Shown piece after piece: positions 12,727-50,170 of a DNA stretch of 50,170 nucleotides. The stretch is from an uncultured bacterium (GTDB lineage: Bacteria; JAAXHH01). The notes beneath the pieces were generated by a model. The model saw only the letters and a program-made list of their open reading frames with translations. It made no database searches and was not told where the DNA came from. Each line of letters opens with the position of its first letter. Within the stretch, counting starts at the first letter, position 1. The position numbers and the translations under genes were made by a program. The stretch is from contig CAJXCW010000005.1 of NCBI GenBank assembly GCA_913051705.1, positions 1 through 50,170 on the forward strand, read 5' to 3'.

Positions 12727-15700
12727 TCACGAATTAGTTGCCACTTCGATCATCCCATTCTCGCGCTGTTTAAACTTACCTGTTTTCAGATGATTCTGGA
12801 TAACTGACTTGATACGTCGTGCAGTGGGTTTATAGACCGCCTGAAATCCGAATAACCGTGCCGTTTGCCTAATCAAATCATCGATTTGAGTGGCAAATTG
12901 GGCTTGCAAAACCATGATTAAGGCAGCTGAAATTTCTTCTTTACAGATATGTTCGATCTTAGGAGAAGGATTCCCGGTACGTCGTCTAACTGCCGCTTTT
13001 GTACCTCCAGTAATCCATATAAAGGCACCTTGTTTTCTTATTAACCTATTTGATTGAGCATACTCTATAGCGGTTTTGACAGCCGATTTAATTCGCCCTG
13101 CTGCGCGTCCGAGCCCCCACGCAGTACGAAGGCGCCGGATGATTTCGTCAAAGTGAACCGGATACTCAACTTTAACAATATTCACTATGGCTTCTGCCAT
13201 TTTACTTGTCCATAGTTCATGCAGCTCACCTCGCTGCACAATACCGATATTGTGACACGTAGTGTATTCCGGAATTTGATCTTCAAGAGATAAAGTTTCC
13301 GGAGTTGACAGCGCTTCAGCCTCTACTTTGTTCCAAATTTCGGAAGGCTGCAGTGTAGAAACTATAATAGATTCTGACTTTTTTGTATTTGGAATTGGTG
13401 ATCTTGTTGTTTTGGAAGATTCAATAGCCCTGAGGAGCCGTATTCTGGTATCGGGCCGATTGCGATACCAGTCCGTAGACCAGATACGATGGATACGCCA
13501 TCCCAGGTTTTCCAGAATTTGATGCCTTAATCGGTCTCGATCCCGGGCTACAGGTGAGGAATAGTACATAGCACCATCACACTCAATACCTAAAATATAT
13601 CGTCCTGGGGCATCCGGATCGACAATTGCCAGATCAAGACGAAATCCAGCGCATCCAACCTGTTTGCGAACAATATGCCCCTGAGTGGTCAGGAAATCGT
13701 ATACGGCGTCTTCGAATGGGGCGTCAGTGTCCGCGCCTGATTCGGTAATGCTTCGTAGGTTACGGTTTTCAGCATAATCCAGAAAAATCTTCAGGGCACG
13801 TACACCGAAAGCGTCGGTATGTTCAGTCATTAGATCCTGAGCTCGAAAATTACTGAACACCACACATCTTTCTCGGGAACGTGTTATTAGTACATTAAGT
13901 CGTCTTTCTCCGCCTTCCATATTTAACGGTCCAAATTGTTTTTTCAATCGTCCACCCGTCTGATCAAATCCATACCCGACACTGATAAAAATGACATCGC
14001 GTTCATCCCCTTGAATGGTCTCAAGGTTCTTCACGAAAAAATGTTCATGTCGGTCTGTACTGAATAAATCCTCCATTTCAGGGTGTACACGAAGCATTCG
14101 TTCCTGTTCGTCCAGTATAGCCTGTTGTTGTTTCATGCTGAATGTACCGATACCAAGACTCTTCTCGGGGAATTCCCGGTAGTGTTCGAATGCTGCTCTG
14201 ATAACTGCTTTTGCTTCATCGCGATTTGTCGAAGATCGCCCCCGATCGTAGGTCGCTCCCGGTGTATGTTTGAGTTCCAGCCCAAGATATGATATCTTAT
14301 CAGCGGAGGATGGATATACGAGCATCTTATTGTCATAAAACTCCTGATTGCTGACGGCGATCAGAGATTCGTGACGACTACGGTAGTGCCAGTGTAGCAT
14401 CTTCGCAGGATAACTGCGTTTGCATTGATGCAGGATGCTTTCGACGTCCACAATGCGGGTTACGCCCATGTCATCCTCATCTTCTTCTTCACTGGTATCT
14501 TCCAGGAGGAGTTTATCAAAAAACGTTGTTGGTGGTAACTGGCGTGTATCACCCATAACGACCAATTGCTGTCCCCGCAGTAAAGCACCAAGCGCATCTT
14601 CCGGCCGAACCTGGCTGGCCTCATCGAAAATGATCACATCAAACGGTTTTAAAGAAGGATTTAAGAACTGAGCTACCGACAGTGGGCTCATCATCATACA
14701 CGGTTTTATCTTCTGGATCAATGTGCCAACATTTTTCATCAGTTGCCGGATGGACATAATACCACGTTTTCGATTGATCTGTCCTGAGAGAATACCTACT
14801 TCAGAGTCCTTCGATACACCTCCACTGATCTTGGGACGGATCTCGTACAGGGCATGTGCGATGCGTCGACGGTTCAATTGAATGATCTTTTCGTCTATCG
14901 CTTTAAAATTCAAGATGTTCTTTTCATGGACCTTACCCATAAAATTTCCGAGTTCAGGCCTTTGTGTAAAGGCTAATTTCAAAGCTGCTTCCGCTATGTT
15001 GCCTTCAAAAGTAGGGATTACTTCATCAGGAGTAAAGCGGCCTTCTTCGATAAGCGGAATCAGAGGTGCAGCATTTGTGCTGGTGGCGGTATCTTTAATT
15101 GAAATCCACTGGGCCCAGTCAAGGAGTTTATGTCTATTGTCCAGCCATTGCTGAATCAAACGTTTCCAATCGGTGAAAGAGACAAGGGGCGGTTTATGCG
15201 AAAAGGCGACTGTATGATCAAATTTGAGCCTTGTAGTGAGTGTTTTATAACATTCCGTGATTTGATTCAGTTGGGTTTGAACTGCCTGCACTGCGTCTGT
15301 GATATTTGTACGTTCGTCTTTCTGTTCTGCAATCTCTAATGCCTTGTCACTGAGATGCCCTTTACTCAACATGTTTCTGAATACTACGATCCATTCTCCG
15401 ATCTCCTGTAACCGCGAAGGGGCGCTGTACTCTGCCTGCCAATATGAACCGAACAAGGCTTTACCATTGTCATTATTCGCCTGGATTTCATCTATTAATT
15501 TGAGACCGGTTCTAATTTTTTCAGAATCAACCTCGAATTGTGATAACACGGAAGACGGACTGGATCGGTAGAAAGCCTCCAGTAACGGTTTTGATGTGGG
15601 TGGTCCAGTTCCCTGTTCCTCGATCATCCAATGTGACCATCGGGCAAGCCGGGTTATAGAATCCTTCCATGATCTGAGACGGCTTTCCCATTCACTGAAC

Positions 15701-18345
15701 GAAATATGAATCGTCTCGGTGAACACTGTATTTAAATCGATTCCTATAGCGACGACAAAATTCCTCAACAGAGTGTCTATAGTTTTCCGTTGCGCTTCCA
15801 ATCCTCGAATGGCGTCCATTACCTGTATCAAGTCAATGCCTGATTCTACCAGCTCAACAGCGTGTTTGGTCAGATGGCCCTGTATAAGATACTGACGAAA
15901 CGATACGATCCACGTCGCCAGGAATTCCAGATCATCAATATGACTTTTCTCCCCCTTCCAGTACCGCCCGAAAAGTCTGTAACCTTCATCTTCCCTTTTA
16001 GCAACATCATCGCGAAGATTGAGACACAGAACCAGCCGATTAAAGTCTCCCAGCATGACAGAGACCGATCGTTTTGTGGTGTCCGTATAAAATCCGCGGG
16101 CAGATTTTTTGAGTCGCCAGAACTCAGGTGAGAAATATCGAAAAACCCCTTGAGATTTTTCTGATAGTTGTACATGCAGTTCATGAATTTCGGGCGTAAA
16201 TGCCTGTTGAGACATAAAACTCGAAAGATCTTTCAATTCAACCTGCAAATGTTTGACAGACTCGATCAGGTGCTCGGCTTCTGTGTTTTTTTTGTTCCAG
16301 GCACTATTACGCAATACTTCAGACTCAATCGGTTTACTTTCCGCTATAATTCTTGCGGCTATCAGGCTCGTATCAGCGTGCTTCAAGTCAACATGGTCGC
16401 CTGTGGCACAGAGACGTTCCAAATCCTTCAGTTGATCAGTAAGAGATCTGAATTCCTCTTGAAGTGTGTCGATGCGATATACTAATGACTTGAAATCAAA
16501 GGTGTGAACATCTGACGATAAAATGCTTACAAAATATGTCTTCGTATCCTGGACAGTTTGAATATGTTTGATCAATTGTGCTGCAATCGGACTGAAGTCA
16601 TCCCATTCGATGTTGATCAGCACCTTACGAGGTATGGGGAGGCCTCGAGCCATTAAGTGACCTGCTTTGATTGCCGCTTCCGTTCCCTTCTGTGTATCAG
16701 GATGACCGGTTGCACTCCATGCATCTAGTTGTTTTAGCCGTGTCTCGAGTTTACCCAGTTCTGCCAAAAACATAGAAATAATCTCTATGATTTCGTCAAC
16801 ATCGAACTGGTTGTGTGCCTCGGGAGCGCACGCACGCCAAGCATGAAGGTGTAACGGGGAGACGACAGGTAACGTTTCTGAGAGATCGCGCAGGTGCGCA
16901 ATAATTTCATTATATTTTTCTGACGACCAGCTCTCCGGACTACCTATCGGGACGCGGATTAATGATTTTGAACGTTTGTCAAAAAAACTCTGTATGCGTT
17001 CTCTTATACCCAGAAATTCATAAGGAGATCTGTCTAAAATAAGGGGTTGTTTAATCGCGTTCACATAACTATTGAGAACGTGGCTCAGCCGGTCATGTTC
17101 TTCAAAGTCTTCAGTCAGTGATCTCACACCCTCGTGTGTTGCCTCGATCGCACTTTTAATCTCATTGAGGAATGCCCGTTTCTTGGTATAACGACTGTGT
17201 AATTCAAGACACGCTTCCCCGAGCCCACAAAGGACGAGACGTTTTTTTACCACTTCAAGCGCGGCCATCTTTTCACTAACGAACAGGACAGACTTCTCAT
17301 GAGAAAGCAGTTCCGCTATAAGATTCGTAATGGTTTGTGATTTGCCCGTACCGGGTGGTCCTTCGACAACCAGATTTCGGCCTGCCTTAACCGCTTCGAT
17401 CACGGCCACCTGGGAGGCATCTGCATCCATGACGAGAAACTGATTCCTGATACTAAGCTGACTAATCTTCCGCTCGTCCTGAAAAAAGTCTTCCCCTTCC
17501 GCTACCTTTTCATCGGGTACGAACAACGATCGGATAAGTGGATGTGAGGCGGGTTGTTTTCCTGGAGGCCAACTGTCGGGATTAAGATCACGATGCATGA
17601 CAAATTTGGTAAAGCTGAAGAAGCCAAGGTATATCCCTTGCGTGATTCTCCAAGCCTTTTGCCTGGGAATCAAATTTCCGATCCTCTTTGCGTATGTGTC
17701 GATCGCTTCTTTACTCTCCGGCATCTCAAATTCCGGCAGAGATATGCCCTGTTCGGCAAGTTTGGACTGAAGAGATACATTCGTATAAATATCTTCACCG
17801 GTCCATTTGATTGTATAAGCGGTTGCGACACGCTTTCTCTCAATCTCGACGGGAATGAGGATCAGAGGCGCTTTCCGTAATTCTTCTGAATCAGGCGATT
17901 CTTTCCATTCCAGAAAGCCCAGAGATAGAAACGAGACGGTGTAGCCCTGCTCTTCAAAGACGGTGAACGATCTTTGATAAATGGATTTCAGGCGTCGCTC
18001 CAGTTCCGAGACCGTCAACTCGGTCTGAAGAAACCGATCCGTATGCTCCTTCGGTATTTTCGACGTATCAAAGTTCCAGGATTCATCGTCTTGTTCACCT
18101 TGTGGTTCTCCAGGACTCAGACCCTTGGGGGAACGCTTCACTTCGGGTTTGGCCTGGAATTTCATTAGATGTTCCTTAAGCACCAATCTATCATAGATTT
18201 CGCATGGACGTTCATCGACCACGCGGATCGTACTGAGCTTCGTCGGCCGGAAGTTCAACATGCGATTTCGCATCGTCAAGTCCAGAAGGCGATCTCTGGC
18301 CTGCTCAAGTTCTTTAGCAATATCGGAAAGTGTCGATTCAGTCAT
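12727..18345 (-). CDS. DUF4011 / SF1 helicase / Vsr-like nuclease / DUF3320 protein
   Basis: A 1872-residue multidomain protein. In order: N-terminal DUF4011 (residues 1 to about 100, with LLDLTMRNRMLNF); split superfamily 1 helicase with Walker A GPPGTGKS at about 328-335; a long, mostly helical insertion (about 430-1200); Walker B VIIFDEASQVRPEDA near 1235; GDTRQLPP; ETIQGDERDVIFIS; and LNVLITRSRE. A Vsr/DUF559-like nuclease domain follows at about 1540-1630 (FRLDLAIVD ... GIECDG), then a C-terminal DUF3320 (about 1810-1860). This layout is the one described for single-gene helicase-nuclease defence (Hhe-type) proteins; defence is inference from the family. It stands alone, between genes unrelated to defence, and is intact. 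Confidence 0.9.
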   Translation of the reverse strand: MTESTLSDIAKELEQARDRLLDLTMRNRMLNFRPTKLSTIRVVDERPCEIYDRLVLKEHLMKFQAKPEVKRSPKGLSPGEPQGEQDDESWNFDTSKIPKEHTDRFLQTELTVSELERRLKSIYQRSFTVFEEQGYTVSFLSLGFLEWKESPDSEELRKAPLILIPVEIERKRVATAYTIKWTGEDIYTNVSLQSKLAEQGISLPEFEMPESKEAIDTYAKRIGNLIPRQKAWRITQGIYLGFFSFTKFVMHRDLNPDSWPPGKQPASHPLIRSLFVPDEKVAEGEDFFQDERKISQLSIRNQFLVMDADASQVAVIEAVKAGRNLVVEGPPGTGKSQTITNLIAELLSHEKSVLFVSEKMAALEVVKKRLVLCGLGEACLELHSRYTKKRAFLNEIKSAIEATHEGVRSLTEDFEEHDRLSHVLNSYVNAIKQPLILDRSPYEFLGIRERIQSFFDKRSKSLIRVPIGSPESWSSEKYNEIIAHLRDLSETLPVVSPLHLHAWRACAPEAHNQFDVDEIIEIISMFLAELGKLETRLKQLDAWSATGHPDTQKGTEAAIKAGHLMARGLPIPRKVLINIEWDDFSPIAAQLIKHIQTVQDTKTYFVSILSSDVHTFDFKSLVYRIDTLQEEFRSLTDQLKDLERLCATGDHVDLKHADTSLIAARIIAESKPIESEVLRNSAWNKKNTEAEHLIESVKHLQVELKDLSSFMSQQAFTPEIHELHVQLSEKSQGVFRYFSPEFWRLKKSARGFYTDTTKRSVSVMLGDFNRLVLCLNLRDDVAKREDEGYRLFGRYWKGEKSHIDDLEFLATWIVSFRQYLIQGHLTKHAVELVESGIDLIQVMDAIRGLEAQRKTIDTLLRNFVVAIGIDLNTVFTETIHISFSEWESRLRSWKDSITRLARWSHWMIEEQGTGPPTSKPLLEAFYRSSPSSVLSQFEVDSEKIRTGLKLIDEIQANNDNGKALFGSYWQAEYSAPSRLQEIGEWIVVFRNMLSKGHLSDKALEIAEQKDERTNITDAVQAVQTQLNQITECYKTLTTRLKFDHTVAFSHKPPLVSFTDWKRLIQQWLDNRHKLLDWAQWISIKDTATSTNAAPLIPLIEEGRFTPDEVIPTFEGNIAEAALKLAFTQRPELGNFMGKVHEKNILNFKAIDEKIIQLNRRRIAHALYEIRPKISGGVSKDSEVGILSGQINRKRGIMSIRQLMKNVGTLIQKIKPCMMMSPLSVAQFLNPSLKPFDVIIFDEASQVRPEDALGALLRGQQLVVMGDTRQLPPTTFFDKLLLEDTSEEEDEDDMGVTRIVDVESILHQCKRSYPAKMLHWHYRSRHESLIAVSNQEFYDNKMLVYPSSADKISYLGLELKHTPGATYDRGRSSTNRDEAKAVIRAAFEHYREFPEKSLGIGTFSMKQQQAILDEQERMLRVHPEMEDLFSTDRHEHFFVKNLETIQGDERDVIFISVGYGFDQTGGRLKKQFGPLNMEGGERRLNVLITRSRERCVVFSNFRAQDLMTEHTDAFGVRALKIFLDYAENRNLRSITESGADTDAPFEDAVYDFLTTQGHIVRKQVGCAGFRLDLAIVDPDAPGRYILGIECDGAMYYSSPVARDRDRLRHQILENLGWRIHRIWSTDWYRNRPDTRIRLLRAIESSKTTRSPIPNTKKSESIIVSTLQPSEIWNKVEAEALSTPETLSLEDQIPEYTTCHNIGIVQRGELHELWTSKMAEAIVNIVKVEYPVHFDEIIRRLRTAWGLGRAAGRIKSAVKTAIEYAQSNRLIRKQGAFIWITGGTKAAVRRRTGNPSPKIEHICKEEISAALIMVLQAQFATQIDDLIRQTARLFGFQAVYKPTARRIKSVIQNHLKTGKFKQRENGMIEVATNS

Positions 18346-18480: not shown

Positions 18481-18563
18481 TAATACACCAAAAAAAGATG
18501 CAGACAGCCCGAACCGTGAAAATCGAGCCGTTTTCGCCGTCCCGGCTCCATTCTATCCCTCCC

Positions 18564-18910
18564 TCAGTAGTATGACGTGGAAATCCGGTTGTCGGCCATC
18601 TGGACAGCTACGGTATAGTCGCCGTTGATGACGCCGGTCGGACCGGCGCGAAGGGTATCATCGCGGAGGCAGACGGGCGTGGACCAGGTTGCGCCCTGGT
18701 CTTCGGAGAGAGGAGGGCATAGAGGTCTGTCGGGTCGGGACAGCGGCACATATAGATGACCAGCATCCCAGGACACATAACCAACGCCCGTTCGGCAGAA
18801 ACAGAATCTACGGATACGAGGCGGCGATACGATGGGACGCATCACAGTATATCTCACCATAAAGCCAGGACGCCCCTGATCTTCGTGACATACAGTTGTG
18901 GGTTGTACGG
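18564..18910 (-). pseudogene. Frameshifted C-terminal remnant of a BNR/sialidase-like gene
   Basis: The last ~50 codons read SEDQGATWSTPVCLRDD ... ADNRISTSYY, with an Asp-box (S-x-D-x-G-x-x-W) as in sialidases and other BNR-repeat exo-glycosidases. Directly upstream the reading frame changes: a different frame gives CPDPTDLYALLS, which would join naturally onto EDQGATW after a one-base shift near 18705. No start or N-terminal half is left before the NIF3 gene at 18922. I conclude it is a truncated, frameshifted relic rather than a working enzyme. A sequencing error would explain the frameshift but not the missing N-terminus. Confidence 0.55.
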
Positions 18911-18921
18911 CGTCCCCTGTA

Positions 18922-21266: not shown

Positions 21267-21312
21267 TTAATAACTGATGTTACGCAGCCTTTTGCGTAAC
21301 ATCAGTTATTAA
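21267..21312. repeat. Perfect 20-bp palindrome (dispersed repeat copy 1)
   Basis: TTAATAACTGATGTTACGCA (21267-21286) and its exact reverse complement (21293-21312) are separated by six bases (GCCTTT). The whole unit recurs in opposite orientation, slightly diverged but including the six-base loop, at about 48275-48312. So it is a dispersed repeat rather than a one-off hairpin. It lies upstream of the MORN-like fragment and downstream of a PhyH gene. It has no poly-T end on either strand. It may be the joined ends of a lost or non-autonomous element. Confidence 0.75.
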
Positions 21313-21382
21313 GTTTCTGCCGGAGCAACTTAATGTCTGTTGGAGCGACTTCAAATACACGGCCTGGTTCAACATTAGTAGG

Positions 21383-26340: not shown

Positions 26341-26700
26341 ATGAACCACTCCATTCTCATTGTCGACGACAATGAAACAGCCGCCAGAACCACCAGTGAA
26401 AACCTGAAAGCGCTGGGATATGAGGTCCGTGTCGTTCTGTCCGGTTTTGATGGCCTGCGACAACTGAAGCCCGGAATATCTCTGGCCTTGATAGACGTTT
26501 CCATGCCTGGCATCGATGGGATTGATTTCGCTATGCGTCTTCACGACTCTCAGCCCGAGGTTCGTGTCGCTTTTACCTCTGGTTTCACCCGCCAGATTCC
26601 GCATCGAGGCCCCCTTGCGTTTCAGACGGCTCCGTTTCTGGCCAAACCTTATACGGTGCCGGAATTAAAGGGATTCGTAGAAGATATTTTTTCTAATTAA
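26341..26700 (+). CDS. Stand-alone response regulator receiver domain
   Basis: A 119-residue CheY-like receiver with no output domain. It keeps the acidic pair in ILIVDDNE, the phospho-acceptor Asp in LALIDVSMPGIDG, the Thr/Ser switch in VAFTSGF and the Lys in FLAKPYT. It would act by protein-protein contact or in a phosphorelay. No kinase gene is next to it. No strong ribosome-binding site is seen before the ATG. Its 3' end overlaps, in the opposite direction, the frame of the cobyric-acid-synthase remnant. Confidence 0.88.
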   Translation: MNHSILIVDDNETAARTTSENLKALGYEVRVVLSGFDGLRQLKPGISLALIDVSMPGIDGIDFAMRLHDSQPEVRVAFTSGFTRQIPHRGPLAFQTAPFLAKPYTVPELKGFVEDIFSN

Positions 26701-26928
26701 CCGGTGTGGTTGGCTGTTCTGAGTTGAAATATCCAGGTCAGATGGGTCGTCGGGCGGCACCTTGTAGTCCGATTTCAAGGATCGAAGAAAGGCCTGCCGG
26801 AAATTAGGACTGTCGAAGAGGCTATGAAAATAGGTTCCCCGGACTTTGTCTCCGCCAACCATGATCCCATTCGAATCTTCGATCTTGTCCTGGATGAATT
26901 TAGGCAGGGAAGAATTAGGCCTTTCGCA
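26665..26928 (-). pseudogene. cobQ: C-terminal remnant of cobyric acid synthase (CobQ-like)
   Basis: The minus-strand frame reads KFIQDKIEDSNGIMVGGDKV and then RGTYFHSLFDSPNFRQAFLR. CobQ (adenosylcobyric acid synthase) proteins end with a very similar G-x-V-x-GTYLHGLFD-x-x-x-FRRAFL segment, including the catalytic His of the class I amidotransferase domain. Nothing upstream matches: the similarity stops at about 26920 and plus-strand foreign sequence begins. So at least 400 codons are missing. With the riboswitch and TonB-receptor remnant at 33.75-34.43 kb on the same strand, it marks the far end of a broken B12 locus. Assignment rests on one conserved block. Confidence 0.55.
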
Positions 26929-26936
26929 GCAATTGA

Positions 26937-27172
26937 GATGGGCTTGACTACAAACTTGATCACCTACAGCAAGATGCCGAGAAGTTTGAGAACAGGGGTA
27001 TAGAAAATTCGTACATGGTGCATCTTGTGCGAGATGATGTCGTTGATAATTTCGCCGAAGTAGAAAGTTTCATACTACAATCTAAATTCAAAGTCGCCTA
27101 CGCTCGAATCTCAGGTAGGCGGACGTTTTTCAAGTGTGTCGGTGATACAGAAATTCAGAACACGAAATGCTA
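26937..27172 (+). pseudogene. 3' remnant of an unknown gene, upstream edge of the addBA segment
   Basis: A frame without a usable start codon runs from just after a TGA at 26934 to a TAA at 27170-27172. It encodes about 78 residues, including LDYKLDHLQQDAEKFENRGI and a KVAYARISGRRTFFKCVGD-like end. The composition is protein-like and matches the direction of addB, 60 bp downstream. I do not recognise the family. Its abrupt beginning coincides with the place where the CobQ-like homology on the other strand ends, so I read it as the tail of a gene that came with the inserted segment. Confidence 0.4.
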
Positions 27173-27231
27173 ACATAAGAATTTATATGGGTGCTGCAGG
27201 AAGTATTCAACATTGACATTGGGGGCTCGCA

Positions 27232-30200
27232 TTGAACCGATTACATGAATCACTCAATATAGTATGCAAGCAACGGGTGTTCGACGAGAAAATTCTATTA
27301 GCCCCGTCGCTCCGCATCGGGCATCAGTGGTTGGACGGAGTGTCCATGGGAGGCGGGACTCCGGTAAACGTAGGAGTTTGGACGTTGAAGAGACTTGTGA
27401 TTCGATATGCTGAGTCACAACGCACTGCTGTAGGCGCAACTGTGATGACTGCGATGCGGGAGGAATATCTGATAGGTTCGCTTTTTCGTGAATTATCCGT
27501 TGAAGAAAACGGGTATCTGTTATCACTTGCTCCATATAGTGGTCTCGTTTCGACCATGTATAGACTGATTGTTGATCTACGTTTGGCGGGCCTCGAGCCT
27601 GATGACCTTGATGCGACGAAGTTTGAAAGCGAGATTAAGGCTAGTGAAACTAAGTTGTTCCTTGGGAAATGGAACGAAAAACTTCGAGAGGAATTACTGG
27701 CCGATTTTGCTCAGTTACTAATCTGGGCTACAGAGGAAATAAAGTCATGTGAAGAGAACTCGCTTCCGCATTTATTGCTACCTGAAAACTCCAATCCAAC
27801 ATGGCTTGAAGAGCAGTTCTTAGCCGCGTGGCCAGAGAGTCGCAAATCAAGCTTGCGCATTGACGGCTCGGATGATGACTCGGTGCAAGACGCATCCTCA
27901 GACTTATCTTTATTGCGCTGGGTAAACGCTGTGGACACTGCACCCCAGCCGTTGAACGATGATACTGTGCAGATATTTCGTGCCCTCGGCGAGCGAAACG
28001 AAGTGCGGGGCGTGCTTCGCAGGTGCCTGGCTCAGGCTATTCCGCTCGATACGGTCGAGCTACTCTATACAGAAGCCGGGACTTATCTGCCCTTGATTTT
28101 CGAAACGGCGCACACCGTCTTTACAGACGATACGGGTTCCACCAATGACATCCCCGTAACCTTTGCTCAAGGGGTTCCTGCTCGATACGCACGACCAGCC
28201 CGCGCACTCGCTCTTCTCGTTCAATGGGTACGCAATGATTTTCCTCAGACCATCTTTGTGCAACTGTTACAAGAAGACTTACTTGAGTTCCCTGAACTAT
28301 CCGGGCAAAAATTATCTACTTCGCGCATGGCTGCGTTGGTACGAGAAATATTCATAGGATTTGGCGAAAGCCGTTACGAATCTGTAATCAATAGCAAACT
28401 GAAAGAATTAGAAGGGCGTATTGAAGATACGAAGAACTCTGAAGACGAAGACGAGGCTCAAATCGAACGTAAACGTAAAAGCATGGAACGAAAACATGCT
28501 TCCTTCTGTCAGATTAAGGAAGAAGTTCTACCGTTCCTTGCATTGAGCCGGGCAGTAGGCTTAGGTGGGACCACATCATTAGAAGCAACACAAGAATTTC
28601 TCAATCGTTACGCAAAGGGCAACAACACTTTCGATAACTATGCGCGGACGAGTCTAAACGAACGTATTTCAGCTCTTCACACCATTATAGAATCAGATCA
28701 AGATGCGGATCACGGCTCTATGCTTGATTGGTTACAAGATTTGGTGCAAACCGCAACCATCGCCGGGGTAGGGCCTTGTCCCGGGTGCTTACACGTCGCC
28801 CCAATGTTAGGCGGTGGGCAGTCAGGCAGAGCGAATATTTTCATCGTCGGCCTGAACGACAACCGATTCCCCGGTGCGGGGTTACAAGATCCACTATTAC
28901 TCGACCATGAACGTTCAGCCATCTCCAACCGACTTCCCACTGCTTCGGGTAGCATAAAACAAAAGCGAAAGGAGTTCACAGAACTGTTAGCGCAGCTACG
29001 CGGATCGTTGACCCTGAGTTATTCCTGCCAAGATGTCGTCACCGATCAAGACGCGTACCCCAGCCCAGCGTTACTATCAATTTATCGAATTATCTCCGGT
29101 GCCCGAGAGGGTGATGTGGAAACCTTGACCGAATGGCTGGCACCAGCGGAAACCTTCGCCCCGCAGGATTCCAATGCTAATCTGACCAAGGACGAGTGGT
29201 GGCTATGGAGATTGTGTGGTCCCGAAGCCATATCAAATTCTGAAGAACTTGTCCATGAAGTGTTTCCCAACCTCGCTCATGGTAGCCATGCAGTTACCAT
29301 GCGAAGCAGTAAAGAATTCTCAGAGTTCGATGGATATGTGCCAGAAGCAGGACCGCTGCTAAGTCCAACCGCAGAGAATGGTCGTCCAGTTTCGGCGAGC
29401 GCACTGGAAACCTTGGCGAAATGTCCATTTCAATTTTTCATGCGCTACGGGCTGCGCGTACATGCGCCAGACACCATCGAGGTGAACCCATCAAAGTGGC
29501 TTGAGGCGAGTGACACGGGAACACTGCTACACGATATTTTTCGTGACTACATGCGTGAAATCCGAGATGAGGATCTGTTGCCCAACATTGAACGAGACAG
29601 CGAGCGAATACACAAGATTCTCAATGAACACGTAAACCACTGGGTGAATCTGTGTCCGCCACCAACCGAAAGTGTTTATCGACGCGAACTCGAAGCTCTC
29701 CAACGGGCAGTCAATACTTTCCTGATTGACGAAACGGAGCGATGTACGTCATCCTGCACGCCTACCTATTTCGAAGCGGCCCTAGGGATGCCCAGCGACG
29801 GCTCTGGTACACCTCTGGATTCCCGAGAACCTGTCACATTGAAATTACCAAGCGGTAAGAAAATACGTGCTCGCGGGCAAATTGATCGTATTGACCAAGT
29901 GGGAGATGAAGATGCCCACACATATGAAATATGGGATTATAAGACCGGTGGAACCTCCCAGTTTAAACAGGATGACCCGTTTCGGCAGGGGCGAAAAATT
30001 CAGAATACACTCTATATGCTGATGGCCGATCAGGCACTGAAGTCGAGTATAGATCTCAACGCTCAATTACTGCGCTTCGGGTATTTTTTTCCCAGTATTA
30101 AAGGAAAAGGAGAGCGAATATCCTGGCCGAAGCTGGAGCTAAGCGAAGGCATAACCATTTTGGATAAATTATGCGAGCTCGCGAGTAACGGAGCTTTTCC

Positions 30201-30336
30201 CCATTCGCACGACAGTAAAGATTGTCATTTTTGTGACCACACTGAATTGTCGGATACTGAAATTAATGGGCTACAAGAAAAAATGGGTGACGAATCAAAC
30301 GAATCACTTGCACCATTCCGGGAGTTACGCACCTAA
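27232..30336 (+). CDS. addB: AddB-like PD-(D/E)XK nuclease subunit
   Basis: Partner subunit of an AddAB-type helicase-nuclease that resects double-strand DNA ends for recombination. The N-terminal part is helicase-like but shows no Walker A. The middle has IFIVGLNDNRFPG, followed by LSYSCQDV. The C-terminal nuclease has SALETLAKCPFQFFMRYGL, RARGQIDRID and IWDYKTGG (Asp902, Lys904). Cys731, Cys998 and Cys1001 match three of the four cluster-binding Cys of AddB; the fourth position seems to be Ser. The start is a TTG with GGGGG six bases upstream. 1034 residues. It overlaps addA by one base (TAATG). It sits inside remnants of a B12 operon. Confidence 0.8.
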   Translation: MNRLHESLNIVCKQRVFDEKILLAPSLRIGHQWLDGVSMGGGTPVNVGVWTLKRLVIRYAESQRTAVGATVMTAMREEYLIGSLFRELSVEENGYLLSLAPYSGLVSTMYRLIVDLRLAGLEPDDLDATKFESEIKASETKLFLGKWNEKLREELLADFAQLLIWATEEIKSCEENSLPHLLLPENSNPTWLEEQFLAAWPESRKSSLRIDGSDDDSVQDASSDLSLLRWVNAVDTAPQPLNDDTVQIFRALGERNEVRGVLRRCLAQAIPLDTVELLYTEAGTYLPLIFETAHTVFTDDTGSTNDIPVTFAQGVPARYARPARALALLVQWVRNDFPQTIFVQLLQEDLLEFPELSGQKLSTSRMAALVREIFIGFGESRYESVINSKLKELEGRIEDTKNSEDEDEAQIERKRKSMERKHASFCQIKEEVLPFLALSRAVGLGGTTSLEATQEFLNRYAKGNNTFDNYARTSLNERISALHTIIESDQDADHGSMLDWLQDLVQTATIAGVGPCPGCLHVAPMLGGGQSGRANIFIVGLNDNRFPGAGLQDPLLLDHERSAISNRLPTASGSIKQKRKEFTELLAQLRGSLTLSYSCQDVVTDQDAYPSPALLSIYRIISGAREGDVETLTEWLAPAETFAPQDSNANLTKDEWWLWRLCGPEAISNSEELVHEVFPNLAHGSHAVTMRSSKEFSEFDGYVPEAGPLLSPTAENGRPVSASALETLAKCPFQFFMRYGLRVHAPDTIEVNPSKWLEASDTGTLLHDIFRDYMREIRDEDLLPNIERDSERIHKILNEHVNHWVNLCPPPTESVYRRELEALQRAVNTFLIDETERCTSSCTPTYFEAALGMPSDGSGTPLDSREPVTLKLPSGKKIRARGQIDRIDQVGDEDAHTYEIWDYKTGGTSQFKQDDPFRQGRKIQNTLYMLMADQALKSSIDLNAQLLRFGYFFPSIKGKGERISWPKLELSEGITILDKLCELASNGAFPHSHDSKDCHFCDHTELSDTEINGLQEKMGDESNESLAPFRELRT

Positions 30337-33300
30337 TGACAACACCAGCCGATCAGGAACAACGCGATCATATACTCAATGATTTGGATAGCAACATTGT
30401 TGTCGAAGCCGCCGCCGGAACGGGAAAAACGACCAGTATGGTAGGTCGTATGGTGGCATTACTCCTGGAAGATAAATGTAAAATCAGTACAATAGCCGCT
30501 GTGACATTTACTAAAAAGTCCGCCAGTGAGTTGCGCGAGCGGTTCCACGCCGAACTGATGAGCCGTGCTCGATCGACTGAAGTCTCCGAATCAAAGCGCG
30601 GGCTGTTACGAAATGCTGTGGAGAACATTGAACAATGTTTCATTGGAACCATCCATTCATTCTGTGGGCGCATTCTTCGTGAACGCCCGATTGAAGCGGG
30701 AGTACGTGTCGCGTTCGAAGAAATAGACGAAGTTGCCGATCAACGGTTACAAGAAGAAGCTTGGGACATGTTCGTGGCAGAAGCCTATACAAAGCAAGAT
30801 AGTGTCCTCGATGAATTGACCGATGTAGGTCTAACGATTGGGCAGTTAGGCGACGCATTTAAGAAATTCGTACTATATCCAGATGTGGAGACATGGCCAT
30901 CCGAAAAACCCAAGTCTATACCATTCATGGCGATTGCTGATGCTGTGAACGCGTACGTGAATCATATTCGTGAGATCGAATACATGCTGCCAGTGAATCC
31001 GGGATCGGACAAACTTTCTGTAGAGTATCGTAAGTTGGAACGCGCCGTGCGTCAGCGTGATTTGTCGAACCCCTTGGTGCTGATGGAAATATTGGAGGGT
31101 TGTAAATACTCCGACAAAATGCTTACTCAGAAGCCATGGGGCGACTACAAACAAAACAGTAAAGACGAGCGTGATCGGTGGGAGGATTTCTATGCCTCGA
31201 CCATCAAACCCGCCCTGAGCCAATGGCGTGAAATACGTTACGAGATTATCATTCGAGTACTACAATCAGCAACGGATGTATATGACAAAATGCGAATCGG
31301 GCGTGGCTTACTCAACTTTCAAGACTTGCTGATGAAGGCCTCGGAAGTACTCCGTGACAGCCCCCATGTTCGGGCCTATTTCAAAAAGCGTTTCACTCAT
31401 CTGCTTATAGATGAGTTTCAGGATACCGACCCCGTCCAAGCCAAGCTCATGATGTATCTGACTGCAACCGACGAATCGGAACCGCAATGGGATCAATGCA
31501 TTCCACGTCCGGGTTCATTATTCGTGGTCGGCGATCCAAAACAATCCATCTATCGCTTTAGACGCGCCGATATCGTCACGTACAACCGTGTCAAAGAAAT
31601 CATTGAGCAAAGTGGAGGAAAAATCCTTACATTGTCTGCCAATTTTCGTACAAGTCCGGAAATTCTCAAATGGGTTAACGATGAATTTACTGAACGGTTC
31701 CCTGAGTCTGCTACAAATCATGCACCCGCTTACGTACCATTTGATTACGGACGCCAAGATGGAACAAAAGGTGATTTCCATGGCGTGCAACGATTGGACA
31801 TCCCGGAAGATTACTCCAAGAAACCTTACCTGTCACTCGGCTACGAGGCCGATGCGATCACCAATACCATTGCCGGCGCACTTGAGAAAGGCATGACCGT
31901 CAGCCACTCAGCCCACGAAGAAGCAAAGGGAGCCAAGCCCCAAGTCCAGCCCGGTGATTTCCTGATTGTTACGCGTGGCAAAAAGAATATGAATGAATAC
32001 GCTAAACGATTAGGCGCCCTAGGCATTCCACACGAAGTAACGGGGGGAACCGTATTAAACGAAATACGCGAAATTGCATTGCTTTATACCCTGTTGAATT
32101 GCGTTGTTCATGCAGACGACCCCGTGGCATTGGTCAATCTACTGCGAGGCGAGTTGTTCGGGTTTAGTGACCGCTTACTATTCCGTTTCAGGCAATCCAA
32201 CGGGCGTTTCAAGTACACCTCTCAGGTACCGGAAGAATTAACGACAGAAGATACTGAACGTTTTACGGATGCCTTCAGCCGTCTCAAGCAATACTCCACA
32301 TGGTTGCGTCATTTACCACACGTGTCCGCACTCGAACGAATTGTGCAGGATTCTGGATTACTCGCTCTCGCCGCATCAAAAGAATCCGGCAACATACGCG
32401 CTGGAAGTCTCGAAAAAGTTATTGAGATCGTTCGTGCTGAGCAATCCCAGATTCACGATGTTGCGGGACTCGCCGAACTCATCCGGAAACTCTCCGAGGG
32501 CGAACTGGACCACGACGGAATGATCGCCGGACAAGCACCCGAATCAGTCGTACGCATCATGAATCTACACAAAGTTAAAGGGCTTGAGGCATCCATCGTG
32601 TTTCTCGCCGACACGAAAGGCGAGAAAAAGCACGAAGTAAGTTTGCATGTAGATCGTTCAGAAGCGTCCCTCACACGGGGATTCATGTCTATTCGCGGGG
32701 AGTCAGGTACCTTTACCTCTGGTCCTTTGTTGGCGCATCCTCATGATTGGGAATTGGCGCAAGAAACCGAAGAGCCGTTCCAAAATGCCGAAACCACTCG
32801 TCTTCTGTACGTAGCCGCGACCCGAGCAGGTTCGAATCTGGTGGTATCCAGTTTGGTTGGCAGTAATCGTGGACACTTCTGGCATACTTTCGACGAAGCC
32901 CTACGCGCTCAACCACCCCTGCGGCAACCCGAAAGAGCAAGTGTCCTTATACAGGAAACAGTAGATAGCAATATCAACGAATACTCGAATTCGATAGAGA
33001 CTCAATCCCAAGCCCTCAATACATTATTCACTCCCACCTACGCACGAGGCGGTTCCAAAGACATCGCGCTATCCGATTCAATTGCACCCAAGTCCGCATC
33101 CCACGGCGAACACGGAACCGAATGGGGAACACTGCTCCATATCCTCTTCGAACGCGCGATGAAACATCCAGACCACGACATCCGTCCACTCGCCATCAGC
33201 CAACTAAACGAAATAGGACTCCCTCAATCACGACTGGACGAAGCCCTCGATACGGTCACCACCGTCATGCAATCCGACATCTGGAAACGCGCACAAGCAA

Positions 33301-33605
33301 ACGACCACGTACTCACCGAAGTACCCTTCCAATACGCCCAAACCACCACCGACGACTCCGGCAAACAAACCCCCATCATCCTGAGGGGCATCATCGATCT
33401 ATCCTTCAAAGAACAAGACGGCTGGGTAATCGTAGACTACAAAACAGACCAATCAGCTAAGGAAAACCTCGACCAAATGATCGAATACTACACCCCACAA
33501 CTAAAGGCCTACGCCGAAGCATGGGAACAATGCACAGGAGAAATCGTTAAAGAAAGTGGATTGTATTTTTCCACAGTTAATAGGTATCTTAGAACCATAG
33601 AATAA
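30336..33605 (+). CDS. addA: AddA-like UvrD helicase with C-terminal nuclease
   Basis: ATP-driven 3'-5' helicase and nuclease subunit of an AddAB-type complex. Motifs: Walker A EAAAGTGKTT at about 26-35, VTFTKKSASELRER, IGTIHSFCGRIL, Walker B LLIDEFQDTD (Asp359), VVGDPKQSIYRFRRAD, LSANFRTSPEIL, VRIMNLHKVKGLEA, RLLYVAATRA. The C-terminal nuclease has GTEWGTLLHILFE, IILRGIIDLSF and VIVDYKTD (Asp1034, Lys1036). 1089 residues, slightly short for AddA. Start overlaps the addB stop (TAATG), so translation is coupled. The last ~500 bp are strongly C-rich and G-poor, unlike the first part of the gene. Confidence 0.88.
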   Translation: MTTPADQEQRDHILNDLDSNIVVEAAAGTGKTTSMVGRMVALLLEDKCKISTIAAVTFTKKSASELRERFHAELMSRARSTEVSESKRGLLRNAVENIEQCFIGTIHSFCGRILRERPIEAGVRVAFEEIDEVADQRLQEEAWDMFVAEAYTKQDSVLDELTDVGLTIGQLGDAFKKFVLYPDVETWPSEKPKSIPFMAIADAVNAYVNHIREIEYMLPVNPGSDKLSVEYRKLERAVRQRDLSNPLVLMEILEGCKYSDKMLTQKPWGDYKQNSKDERDRWEDFYASTIKPALSQWREIRYEIIIRVLQSATDVYDKMRIGRGLLNFQDLLMKASEVLRDSPHVRAYFKKRFTHLLIDEFQDTDPVQAKLMMYLTATDESEPQWDQCIPRPGSLFVVGDPKQSIYRFRRADIVTYNRVKEIIEQSGGKILTLSANFRTSPEILKWVNDEFTERFPESATNHAPAYVPFDYGRQDGTKGDFHGVQRLDIPEDYSKKPYLSLGYEADAITNTIAGALEKGMTVSHSAHEEAKGAKPQVQPGDFLIVTRGKKNMNEYAKRLGALGIPHEVTGGTVLNEIREIALLYTLLNCVVHADDPVALVNLLRGELFGFSDRLLFRFRQSNGRFKYTSQVPEELTTEDTERFTDAFSRLKQYSTWLRHLPHVSALERIVQDSGLLALAASKESGNIRAGSLEKVIEIVRAEQSQIHDVAGLAELIRKLSEGELDHDGMIAGQAPESVVRIMNLHKVKGLEASIVFLADTKGEKKHEVSLHVDRSEASLTRGFMSIRGESGTFTSGPLLAHPHDWELAQETEEPFQNAETTRLLYVAATRAGSNLVVSSLVGSNRGHFWHTFDEALRAQPPLRQPERASVLIQETVDSNINEYSNSIETQSQALNTLFTPTYARGGSKDIALSDSIAPKSASHGEHGTEWGTLLHILFERAMKHPDHDIRPLAISQLNEIGLPQSRLDEALDTVTTVMQSDIWKRAQANDHVLTEVPFQYAQTTTDDSGKQTPIILRGIIDLSFKEQDGWVIVDYKTDQSAKENLDQMIEYYTPQLKAYAEAWEQCTGEIVKESGLYFSTVNRYLRTIE

Positions 33606-33627
33606 TGTTTACATGGGATTGAAAATT

Positions 33628-34002
33628 TCAACAGCAAAGACCAACGGGAGAAAACCGAATGTCAGATGGGGATATCAAAGATGCAGGGCAATATGGGTTC
33701 GATAAAGAGGATGCTAATAAAGTCCTGGAAGATCTCAAACAAATATGTAGAGGGCCTGCCAACTGGCGCAGGACTTCAGAGACCGAAGTTTGACCGGAGC
33801 GTTCGATCTCCGCCACAGTGATAACAGTAATCGAACTGGCCACGTTCTTGATCGGCGTCTCGGTGCTTGTGGCCGTGACCACGGTAGCGTCCAGAAGGAA
33901 TGAAGGAATGGAATCGGCGGATGCCGTTAGATTTTGAGCCGATATCGTTTGTGATGAGATGATCATACCAACGGCAAAGCAAATAGTAAACAGGCGTTTC
34001 AT
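33628..34002 (-). pseudogene. N-terminal remnant of a TonB-dependent (BtuB-like) receptor
   Basis: The minus-strand frame begins with a signal peptide (MKRLFTICFAVGMIISSQ, then TISA). It continues into a plug domain start: LDATVVTATSTETPIKNVAS, SITVITVAEIERSG, VSEVLRQLAG. That matches BtuB-type outer-membrane receptors, which are 600 residues or more. After LAG (about 33752) the sequence stops resembling a receptor and runs to a stop at 33628. The barrel and most of the plug are gone. GAGG lies six bases before the ATG. A cobalamin riboswitch upstream supports corrinoid uptake as the original role. Confidence 0.8.
33659..33793 (+). pseudogene. 5' remnant of an unknown gene downstream of addA
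   Basis: An ATG at 33659 with GGGAG nine bases upstream opens a frame encoding MSDGDIKDAGQYGFDKEDAN, then KVLEDLKQICRG. At about 33752 the sequence becomes antisense to the TonB-receptor remnant, and the frame stops at 33791-33793. So the first ~31 codons look like a real gene start, and the last ~13 are accidental. I do not recognise the family. It is probably the third gene of the operon from which addB-addA came, cut at the insertion boundary. Confidence 0.4.
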
Positions 34003-34101
34003 GTTGTTCCTCTTGAATCAGTAGGTGAAGTGTTTCAGATCAGGCGTTGTTGGCCCTCACGAGGTTCGTCCTTTCATCCTTTCGCCCATCCCTCCTTTCA
34101 C

Positions 34102-34139
34102 AAAAAAATCCCCGAACCTGATGCTACAGGTCCGGGGAT
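34102..34139 (-). terminator. Intrinsic terminator, probable riboswitch expression platform
   Basis: On the minus strand a 13-bp stem with one mismatch (ATCCCCGGACCTG and CAGGTTCGGGGAT) is followed directly by seven T. It lies about 130 nt after the cobalamin aptamer and 100 nt before the receptor ATG, the right place for transcriptional attenuation. Confidence 0.75.
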
Positions 34140-34268
34140 GCCGTTTTTCATCCTCGATATTTGTTTACAGATAGTCTTCGGGCGATTTCAGGAACACCCT
34201 CGATACCATACGAAAGACTATACCGCCTGAGAAAATGACTTCAATCCACGGAAGTCTTACAGGCTTTT

Positions 34269-34425
34269 TACAGGTCGGTCTTCTGGCTTCCGGATCATCC
34301 TACTTGCTGCGCCTTCCCATTCCTGTTGGCACAGTGGCCTGTGCAGCGTTCGTTCCCGGTTACAGCGGCGGGTCCGCGACGGATTCACACCGTCTTCCCT
34401 CGTTCACTCATGCTGAACCACCTGT
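34269..34425 (-). promoter_or_regulatory. Cobalamin riboswitch
   Basis: On the minus strand the leader contains GGTGTGAATCCGTCGCGGAC, then CCGCCGCTGTAACCG, and the B12 box AAGCCAGAAGACCGACCTG, all conserved in cobalamin aptamers. The outer helix P1 can form from ACAGGT (34420-34425) and ACCTGT (34269-34274). Binding of adenosyl- or other cobalamin would favour the downstream terminator and shut off the receptor gene. The aptamer looks intact even though the gene it controls is truncated. The divergent 34426-34622 stretch holds its promoter and that of the plus-strand gene at 34623. Confidence 0.92.
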
Positions 34426-34622
34426 TATATTACGATATGCTGTTTGACGGGACGACTGTCAATAAAATATTGATAAACGCTTGAAAGTGCTCTGGATCGA
34501 TATTATATATATCGATTAACAACAACATATTGCCGATTGGCAAAGCTATTAGGAGCAGGTAATACAACGCAATCTTACCCAATAAGGAGAAAAGGCGAAA
34601 ATCAATTCACTCGCCACTTACC

Positions 34623-48145: not shown

Positions 48146-48272
48146 TAAGACTCCTGAAAATAATAACAGATATAAAACAGTCGTATATCTTCAATTCGTT
48201 TCAGTTAGTGGCTTGTAAGGGGATCGTTATTACGTACTCCTCAATAATATATCACTTTCATTATAAAAACAA

Positions 48273-48411
48273 GTTATTAACTGATGTTACGCAAAAGGCT
48301 GTGCAACATCAGAGTACTTTGTGCTTTGCTAAAATCGATTCAAAAACTATGATTATCATTGCAGTGGACGCTCTTAACAAAGTACATTACGCGGTCTTTA
48401 CGTAACATCCG
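48273..48411. repeat. Dispersed palindrome (copy 2) with a partial third copy
   Basis: Bases 48275-48312 repeat, in opposite orientation and with a few changes, the palindrome at 21267-21312, including its AAAGGC loop. Seventy bases further on, TTACGCGGTCTTTACGTAACATC (about 48387-48409) looks like a decayed third arm pair. Between them are ACTTTGTGCTTTG words. The remainder of the 478-bp gene-free stretch 48146-48623 shows nothing else I can name. Confidence 0.6.
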
Positions 48412-49163: not shown

Positions 49164-49277
49164 CAGCAGGATGGCGGGGTGGGAGGGTGGAGGAATCCGC
49201 TTCATTATTTCCTTCCCGCTTTCAATCATTCTGTTATTCAGCCACTAAATCCTAACCTGTATCGGGAGGGGTATACC

Positions 49278-49783
49278 ATGTCTCATCCATTTATTGACGC
49301 ACTCAAAAACAATGACCTTGATGCGGTCAAAGCTTTGCCCAAAACGGATTTACATAATCATTCGATCCTTGGCGCCCGAGTCGAGCGTGTCGAAGCTTGG
49401 AAAGCATGTCCGATTCCGCGGCCTTCTGATAAAATGAACGGCGTACGTGGTATGATGGATTATGCCGGTTCGACATTGTATCCATATCTTCATTCGCAAG
49501 AAGGCTTTGAATTCACTGCGGATGCAGCCATCCAGGATGCGATTGAAGATGGTGTAAGCCTGCTGGAAACCAGCGTGGATGTAAAATTTGCTTTTCTATA
49601 TTCAGATCGAGTACACGGGCTACACCAATTTTTATCTTCTTTACTGGATAGGTACCAGGACCGTATTACGGTGCATGTTGAGATGGGATTTTCGCGTGGA
49701 GATTCTGAAGAACGACTGGACATGGCCTATCAATGTATCGAGACGGCCTTTTTTACCGGTATCGGCCTGTATGGCGATCAGAC
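49278..49783 (+). pseudogene. N-terminal part of an adenosine-deaminase-like amidohydrolase, truncated
   Basis: From the ATG at 49278 (preceded by GGGAGGGG) the frame encodes KALPKTDLHNHSILGARVER, the metal-binding LHxH motif of the adenosine deaminase family, then a protein-like sequence through YQDRITVHVEMGFSRGD to GIGLYGDQ. Family members need about 330-350 residues and further His/Asp ligands in the second half of the barrel, which are absent. At about 49783 the sequence changes to a histidine-kinase fragment in another frame; the original frame stops at 49835. So the enzyme is cut at about half length. Confidence 0.7.
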
Positions 49784-50083
49784 TTTGATCTGCTTAAAAA
49801 TGCGCTCCAGGCTATCAAGGAAACAGGGGGAATAAAAATCCGTACTTTTGAGAAAGACGACCAGGTCTATATCCAAATCAGCGATATGGGCGTGGGCATT
49901 CCTCCGGCGCAATTGGAGGGCCTTTTTGATTTTCACGCCACGCAGGACCGGATGAAGATGGGATTCGGATTGTCCACCGACTTCAGGATTATCCAGGATC
50001 ATAAAGGGGAGATCCGGATCAAGAGCGAAGTGGGAAAGGGAACGGAGGTGACGATCCGCCTTCCAAAGAGGGAGCAGGGATGA
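49784..50083 (+). pseudogene. C-terminal ATPase fragment of a sensor histidine kinase
   Basis: The frame gives LLKNALQAIKETGGIKIRTF (N box), ISDMGVGIPPAQLEGLF (G1), MGFGLSTDFRIIQDHKG (G2) and VGKGTEVTIRLP, the order of a GHKL ATPase domain. There is no dimerisation/phospho-acceptor His domain: upstream sequence belongs to the amidohydrolase fragment. A Met at 49733 opens the frame, but its first ~17 residues are accidental. Without the His domain it cannot be a normal kinase. Confidence 0.65.
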
Positions 50084-50084
50084 G

Positions 50085-50170
50085 AGGTTATTTAACTTTG
50101 AAGCGGAACAACAGGAACGGCGACGGGAAGGAAACCTTAGGATGATCGAGAGCACGTTGCAGGTAGTGAA
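50085..50170 (+). other. Open frame running off the window, possible kinase-like coil
   Basis: The frame reads RLFNFEAEQQERRREGNLRM and then IESTLQVV to the window edge. The charged, heptad-like pattern fits a coiled coil or signalling helix. No good start codon lies upstream before a stop at 50049, so it may start later or be a fragment. Too short to identify. Confidence 0.2.

Follow-up and report, generated by a model that had tools for sequence, protein, structure and literature searches.

The window, by which we mean the whole stretch of 50,170 nucleotides that was analysed, is contig 5 of a draft genome of 5.45 Mb from an uncultured bacterium that appears to be related to Candidatus Latescibacterota (405 contigs, completeness 97.2%, contamination 5.7%). 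On its plus strand lie two intact reading frames that overlap by one base and encode an addB-type nuclease (27232-30336; 1034 amino acids, TTG start) and an addA-type helicase-nuclease (30336-33605; 1089 amino acids). As the first-pass annotation had noticed, this pair is enclosed by minus-strand remnants of B12 genes, namely a cobalamin riboswitch with the beginning of a BtuB-like receptor gene on the right and the end of a CobQ-like gene on the left. Profile searches bear out these assignments, that of CobQ less firmly than that of BtuB.

In AddA, a UvrD-like helicase is followed by a PD-(D/E)XK nuclease at the C-terminus, as indicated by matches above the cut-offs to PF00580 (E 1.6e-53), PF13361 (2.1e-16) and PF12705 (2.0e-10) and by the motifs GTGKT, DEFQDTD, GDPKQSIYRFR and GIIDL..VDYKTD in its translation. 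It also matches TIGR02785 and the structure of Bacillus subtilis AddA (PDB 3u44_A, E 2.2e-35). AddB was assigned from PF12705 (E 5.3e-28) and from an alignment in which the C-terminal PD-(D/E)XK nuclease (GQIDRID...WDYKTG) retains the invariant residues G882, D885, D902 and K904, while no PDB entry was matched by sequence. Three of the four iron-sulphur cysteines are present in AddB (C731, C998 and C1001) and the fourth is substituted, the window reading CHFCDHTELS where a relative (L077) reads CRFCDYAPVC. Most AddB relatives have all four; since a relative from Salinibacter is without all four, these cysteines are not an absolute marker, and the pair was filed as AddAB-like. Measured against curated equivalog cut-offs (TIGR02773, TIGR02785 and others), both proteins score much too low, AddA reaching 264 of 708 bits (TIGR02785) and AddB 65 of 904, which marks the pair as a divergent AddAB-like branch. 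AddBA would work as an ATP-dependent dual-nuclease helicase that resects double-strand ends.

On the right flank, the minus strand carries a complete cobalamin riboswitch aptamer (34256-34440; RF00174, 105.8 bits, E 1.4e-25, model positions 1-189), followed on its 3' side by a Rho-independent terminator that forms the expression platform (34139-34108; a 13-pair stem and then T7), so that the interrupted locus keeps both elements. The btuB-like 5' remnant (34002-33753, minus strand) comprises ∼83 codons and was delimited by profiles and by alignment with sister genomes; it encodes a signal peptide and the start of a TonB plug, and it matches TIGR01779 (TonB-B12) with an E of 1.4e-8 over model positions 14-74 of 614 only, and PF07715 with 1.5e-4. 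Three sister genomes (G004, G007, G008) share the cobalamin riboswitch, a terminator-like stretch and a homologous BtuB N-terminus with the window. Their BtuB proteins are full length (641-659 amino acids), whereas in the alignment the similarity of the remnant to them ends at about residue 83, at 'LRQLAG' (∼33753). The truncated btuB frame enters the insert for ∼40 codons before a stop at 33628, giving a fusion frame of 124 codons (34002-33628), and the sole terminator-like site 3' of it, on the antisense side of addA, is weak (33485-33468). With riboswitch and terminator intact, low B12 would be predicted to cause read-through into this fusion frame and then into the 3' part of addA in antisense orientation. 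A different kind of irregularity was seen in a genome of the third genus (G013), where the riboswitch-linked btuB seems to be split into two overlapping frames, possibly by a frameshift (L027, 763-2881).

On the left flank, a cobQ-like gene is represented by its final ∼75-90 codons (26665 to ∼26935, minus strand), assigned from profiles, a match within its own genome and alignment. This remnant matches NF001989 (E 4.6e-5, model positions 403-453 of 480) and TIGR00313 (E 0.007), and a genome-wide search for cobQ recovers the same site (26728-26880, E 6.5e-4). The assignment is weaker than that of btuB because it is based on ∼50 residues, mainly the motif GTYxHSLFD (here GTYFHSLFD).

Between these remnants the insert measures ∼6.8 kb, and all four gene ends that meet at the two junctions are truncated. 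The insert begins with the 3' remnant of a gene X (∼26940-27175, plus strand), whose frame opens at the left junction and runs for ∼77 codons and a stop before addB. It ends with the 5' remnant of a gene Y (33659-33752, plus strand; translation MSDGDIKDAGQYGFDKEDANKVLEDLKQICR), ∼31 codons downstream of addA that are cut at the right junction. These two truncated genes had been overlooked in the first-pass annotation. The right junction is placed at ∼33752 (zone 33749-33756), where the BtuB similarity ends and which the plus-strand frame reaches, and the left one within ∼26890-26940, the zone between the end of the CobQ similarity and the start of the open plus-strand frame. Neither remnant matched Pfam, had a convincing relative among the 16 genomes of the phylum-level searches or recurred beside the addBA genes of relatives, and X also had no convincing relative on plasmids. 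As first reported, the insert contains no transposase or integrase reading frames and its edges no terminal repeats; together with constant boundaries, these features of a mobile element were not found. Edges that cut genes, with no element ends, give the insert the look of a random fragment rather than a purpose-built element. Elsewhere in the window, a plus-strand frame (49179-50100) has an N-terminal half that was read as deaminase-like (no Pfam match) and abruptly gives way to a histidine kinase's C-terminal ATPase domain; this join at ∼49.78 kb lies 0.4 kb from the contig end and is possibly chimaeric.

The addBA insert is compositionally foreign, while its flanks are host-like. Codon usage was scored against 247 host reading frames sampled over 400 kb of this draft; addB ranked lowest of all and addA at the 0.4th percentile, compared with the 72nd to 88th percentile for the nearest flanking genes. 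The tetranucleotide correlation of the insert with the genome (0.309) falls below that of each of 100 host segments of equal size, whereas the flanks are normal (0.64-0.66). Likewise, addB and addA have a GC3 of 0.47-0.50 and the two edge remnants values of 0.45 and 0.32, compared with 0.61-0.64 for the flanking genes. A maximum-likelihood tree places the window AddA with that of a Planctomycetales metagenome-assembled genome (MAG; 39% identity, support 100/98) and apart from the clade in which the AddA proteins of Latescibacterota fall. No relative of the window AddB was found in the 13 other family genomes. A viral origin was considered and rejected, as no relative lies on a viral contig and matches to phage records are weak only.

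We then compared the B12 genes of the host with those of its family. Searches of the draft genome for a second btuB, cobQ or addB of the window type found none. Most family genomes contain the riboswitch, with an intact btuB behind it in all three g2 loci that were read fully (L024, L025, L026). Full-length cobQ is present in eight of the 12 sister-genus genomes, and in seven of these eight it shares a contig with btuB, the two genes being convergent and 14-17 kb apart. The other four (within G001-G012) have no cobQ above the family cut-off, so the family may have lost cobyric acid synthase more than once. The first-pass annotation had taken the outer pieces to be collinear ends of one operon. 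Collinear they are, but this arrangement of btuB and cobQ in sisters lends no support to a single operon, and an intact collinear run from riboswitch and btuB to cobQ was found in no sister genome, just as no family relative shows the arrangement of the window. The window genome has a second riboswitch (L028), the genes downstream of which were taken to encode an ABC importer of the B12 type and an adenosyltransferase; together with B12-binding domains encoded elsewhere in the genome, this suggests that the organism probably still uses B12. Synteny of the flanks was also tried as a guide, but HemN, the protein encoded at 34.6 kb and the other flank proteins do not occur as a block in family genomes.

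Our preferred explanation, which we hold to be probable, is that a foreign addBA fragment was joined into the B12 region illegitimately and that host DNA was deleted in the process. A fragment of ∼6.8 kb, made up of the tail of gene X, addB, addA and the head of gene Y, would have been placed by illegitimate recombination into a chromosomal region for B12 uptake and synthesis, at the cost of the greater part of btuB, the 5' portion of cobQ and anything between them, and both junctions would exist in the living genome. The replacement of B12 genes proposed in the first-pass annotation is thus a reasonable one, given that both genes are truncated without intact copies in the draft and that the insert is foreign and absent from 13 family genomes. 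Ku-dependent joining was discarded, since no Ku was found in 13 family genomes, the window genome included; the join may instead have been driven by microhomology or another error-prone route. As btuB and cobQ are convergent rather than collinear in sisters, an insertion would require a further rearrangement.

The main alternative is an assembly chimaera, in which host DNA was misjoined to a fragment of another organism at one or both junctions. The fragmentation of the assembly into 405 contigs and its contamination of 5.74% agree with such an artefact and count against a real insertion, as does the second abrupt gene-to-gene join on the same contig at ∼49.78 kb. Genes truncated to the left and right of each junction with no mobile element present, a composition that shifts sharply at the junctions and an arrangement found in no family relative are likewise what a chimaera would produce. 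However, two independent misjoins would be required for one piece of foreign DNA to end up flanked by two B12 genes that share an orientation. Because btuB and cobQ are linked in sisters and both remnants derive from B12-related genes on one strand, a random misjoin of the flanks is unlikely. Moreover, neither the barrel part of btuB nor the front of cobQ was found on another contig, and the draft assembly contains no repeat that spans either junction. A repeat-mediated misjoin in particular was set aside after a self-search of 7.7 kb, which returned only terminator-like matches and short fortuitous ones outside the junctions. We regard a chimaera as rather unlikely.

The first-pass annotation had further suggested a transferable defence or repair cassette. 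On such a reading the addBA pair would be mobile as a whole and have inserted itself at the B12 locus. Distant addBA-like pairs do occur on 15 plasmids, several of them adjoining defence-type genes (DUF1156/SNF2/Cas ring nuclease; DUF4011; methyltransferase and helicase), which speaks weakly for mobility and leaves room for a defence role. In addition, an anti-phage nuclease of the DUF4011 type is encoded in another foreign block of the window. Against this, the insert lacks element ends and its edges cut genes, and the closer addBA relatives, those of Gemmatimonadota and Latescibacterota, occupy conserved chromosomal contexts (a downstream gene is common to L079, L080 and L082, and a lysC-like gene lies upstream in L081 and L082) and none was found on a viral contig. 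In a Bacteroidetes MAG (L078), genes adjoining the addBA relative were read as Ku-, LigD- and SbcCD-like. Such contexts and neighbours make repair at least as likely a role as defence. PADLOC gave no match for AddB and matched AddA only through the shared UvrD-type core, mostly with GajB models, so that no defence profile reaches beyond the helicase core. In the light of these observations a mobile cassette appears very unlikely, and the suggestion is not upheld.

The second foreign block deserves a description of its own. Its DUF4011 anti-phage nuclease-helicase gene (12727-18345, minus strand) is compositionally foreign, lies 9 kb from the addBA insert and scores 1401 bits with NF058533 ProA (cut-off 1500) and 1754 bits with PADLOC PDC-S37. 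Between this gene and a NIF3-like gene, at ∼18560-18920 on the minus strand, there is a frameshifted remnant that was read as sialidase-like (no Pfam match). A DUF4011 protein of the same kind is encoded two genes from a distant addBA-like pair on a plasmid of Halomontanus rarus (L149, 5796-17056). The window also contains two copies of a MITE-like palindromic repeat (CTGATGTTACGCA...TGCGTAACATCAG) at 21274-21315 and 48271-48312, and similar copies occur elsewhere in the genome, on further contigs.

That addBA is native to the lineage and was moved by chromosomal rearrangement rather than transfer is highly improbable, for although AddBA of the same broad clade is carried by G014, which belongs to the same order, and by further MAGs of Latescibacterota, the pair has host-atypical codons and tetranucleotides, an AddA nearest to that of a Planctomycetales MAG and outside the Latescibacterota clade, and no counterpart in 13 family genomes.

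The sister genus has an adjacent pair of AddB (TIGR03623, 854 bits) and alphaproteobacterial-like AddA, seen in two genomes read fully, and AddA matches of this type were obtained in all 12 sister genomes. For the window genome and the third genus, the AddA search otherwise returned UvrD-type proteins of other kinds, mainly of the PHP-UvrD type, and a TIGR03623-type pair was not found by this search in the draft assembly of the window genome. The captured AddBA could thus be the only AddAB-type enzyme there, and it may have replaced the TIGR03623-type AddBA that the genome seems to lack. Replacement of analogous complexes by one another has been described for the distribution of AddAB (PMC1193525; PMC6452273), and a comparison of bacterial recombination systems found scant evidence that such genes are transferred, although it singled out AddAB among proteobacteria as a likely case (PMC1193525). 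A more far-reaching proposal, in which the captured enzyme is now the sole one of its type and riboswitch-driven antisense transcription into addA couples B12 to the processing of double-strand breaks, strikes us as extremely speculative.

Provided that the junctions are real, the locus would represent the transfer, in the form of a random fragment, of a DNA repair complex of the housekeeping type into a family in which no Ku was found, and the cost to the cell would be a B12 receptor and cobyric acid synthase. It also indicates that context alone is insufficient to name a defence cassette when the fragment has no mobile-element ends.

Compared with known systems, the window pair resembles AddAB/RexAB (B. 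subtilis AddA, 3u44) in its adjacent addB-addA genes, its UvrD-type helicase and the C-terminal PD-(D/E)XK nuclease of each protein; it differs in falling far below the Gram-positive and alphaproteobacterial equivalog cut-offs and in being one iron-sulphur cysteine short in AddB. The TIGR03623-type pair of the sister genus is equally adjacent and has the same kinds of helicase and nuclease domains, but it is only distantly related, the window AddB scoring 32 bits where the sister AddB scores 854 and the AddA proteins lying on separate branches of the tree. The plasmid pairs (Salinibacter pSR116, Halorientalis, Halomontanus, Sphingopyxis) share the adjacent genes for a PD-(D/E)XK nuclease and a UvrD-type helicase at ∼23-32% identity; several stand in defence-gene neighbourhoods, and the haloarchaeal AddA proteins branch far off. 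The addBA pair of Planctomycetales HKST-UBA33 (L076) has other neighbours than that of the window, with a sigma-54 activator upstream and no relative of X or Y. Nevertheless, it is the closest pair found, with the same gene order, 39% identity in AddA and 35% in AddB, and a sister position to the window in the AddA tree.
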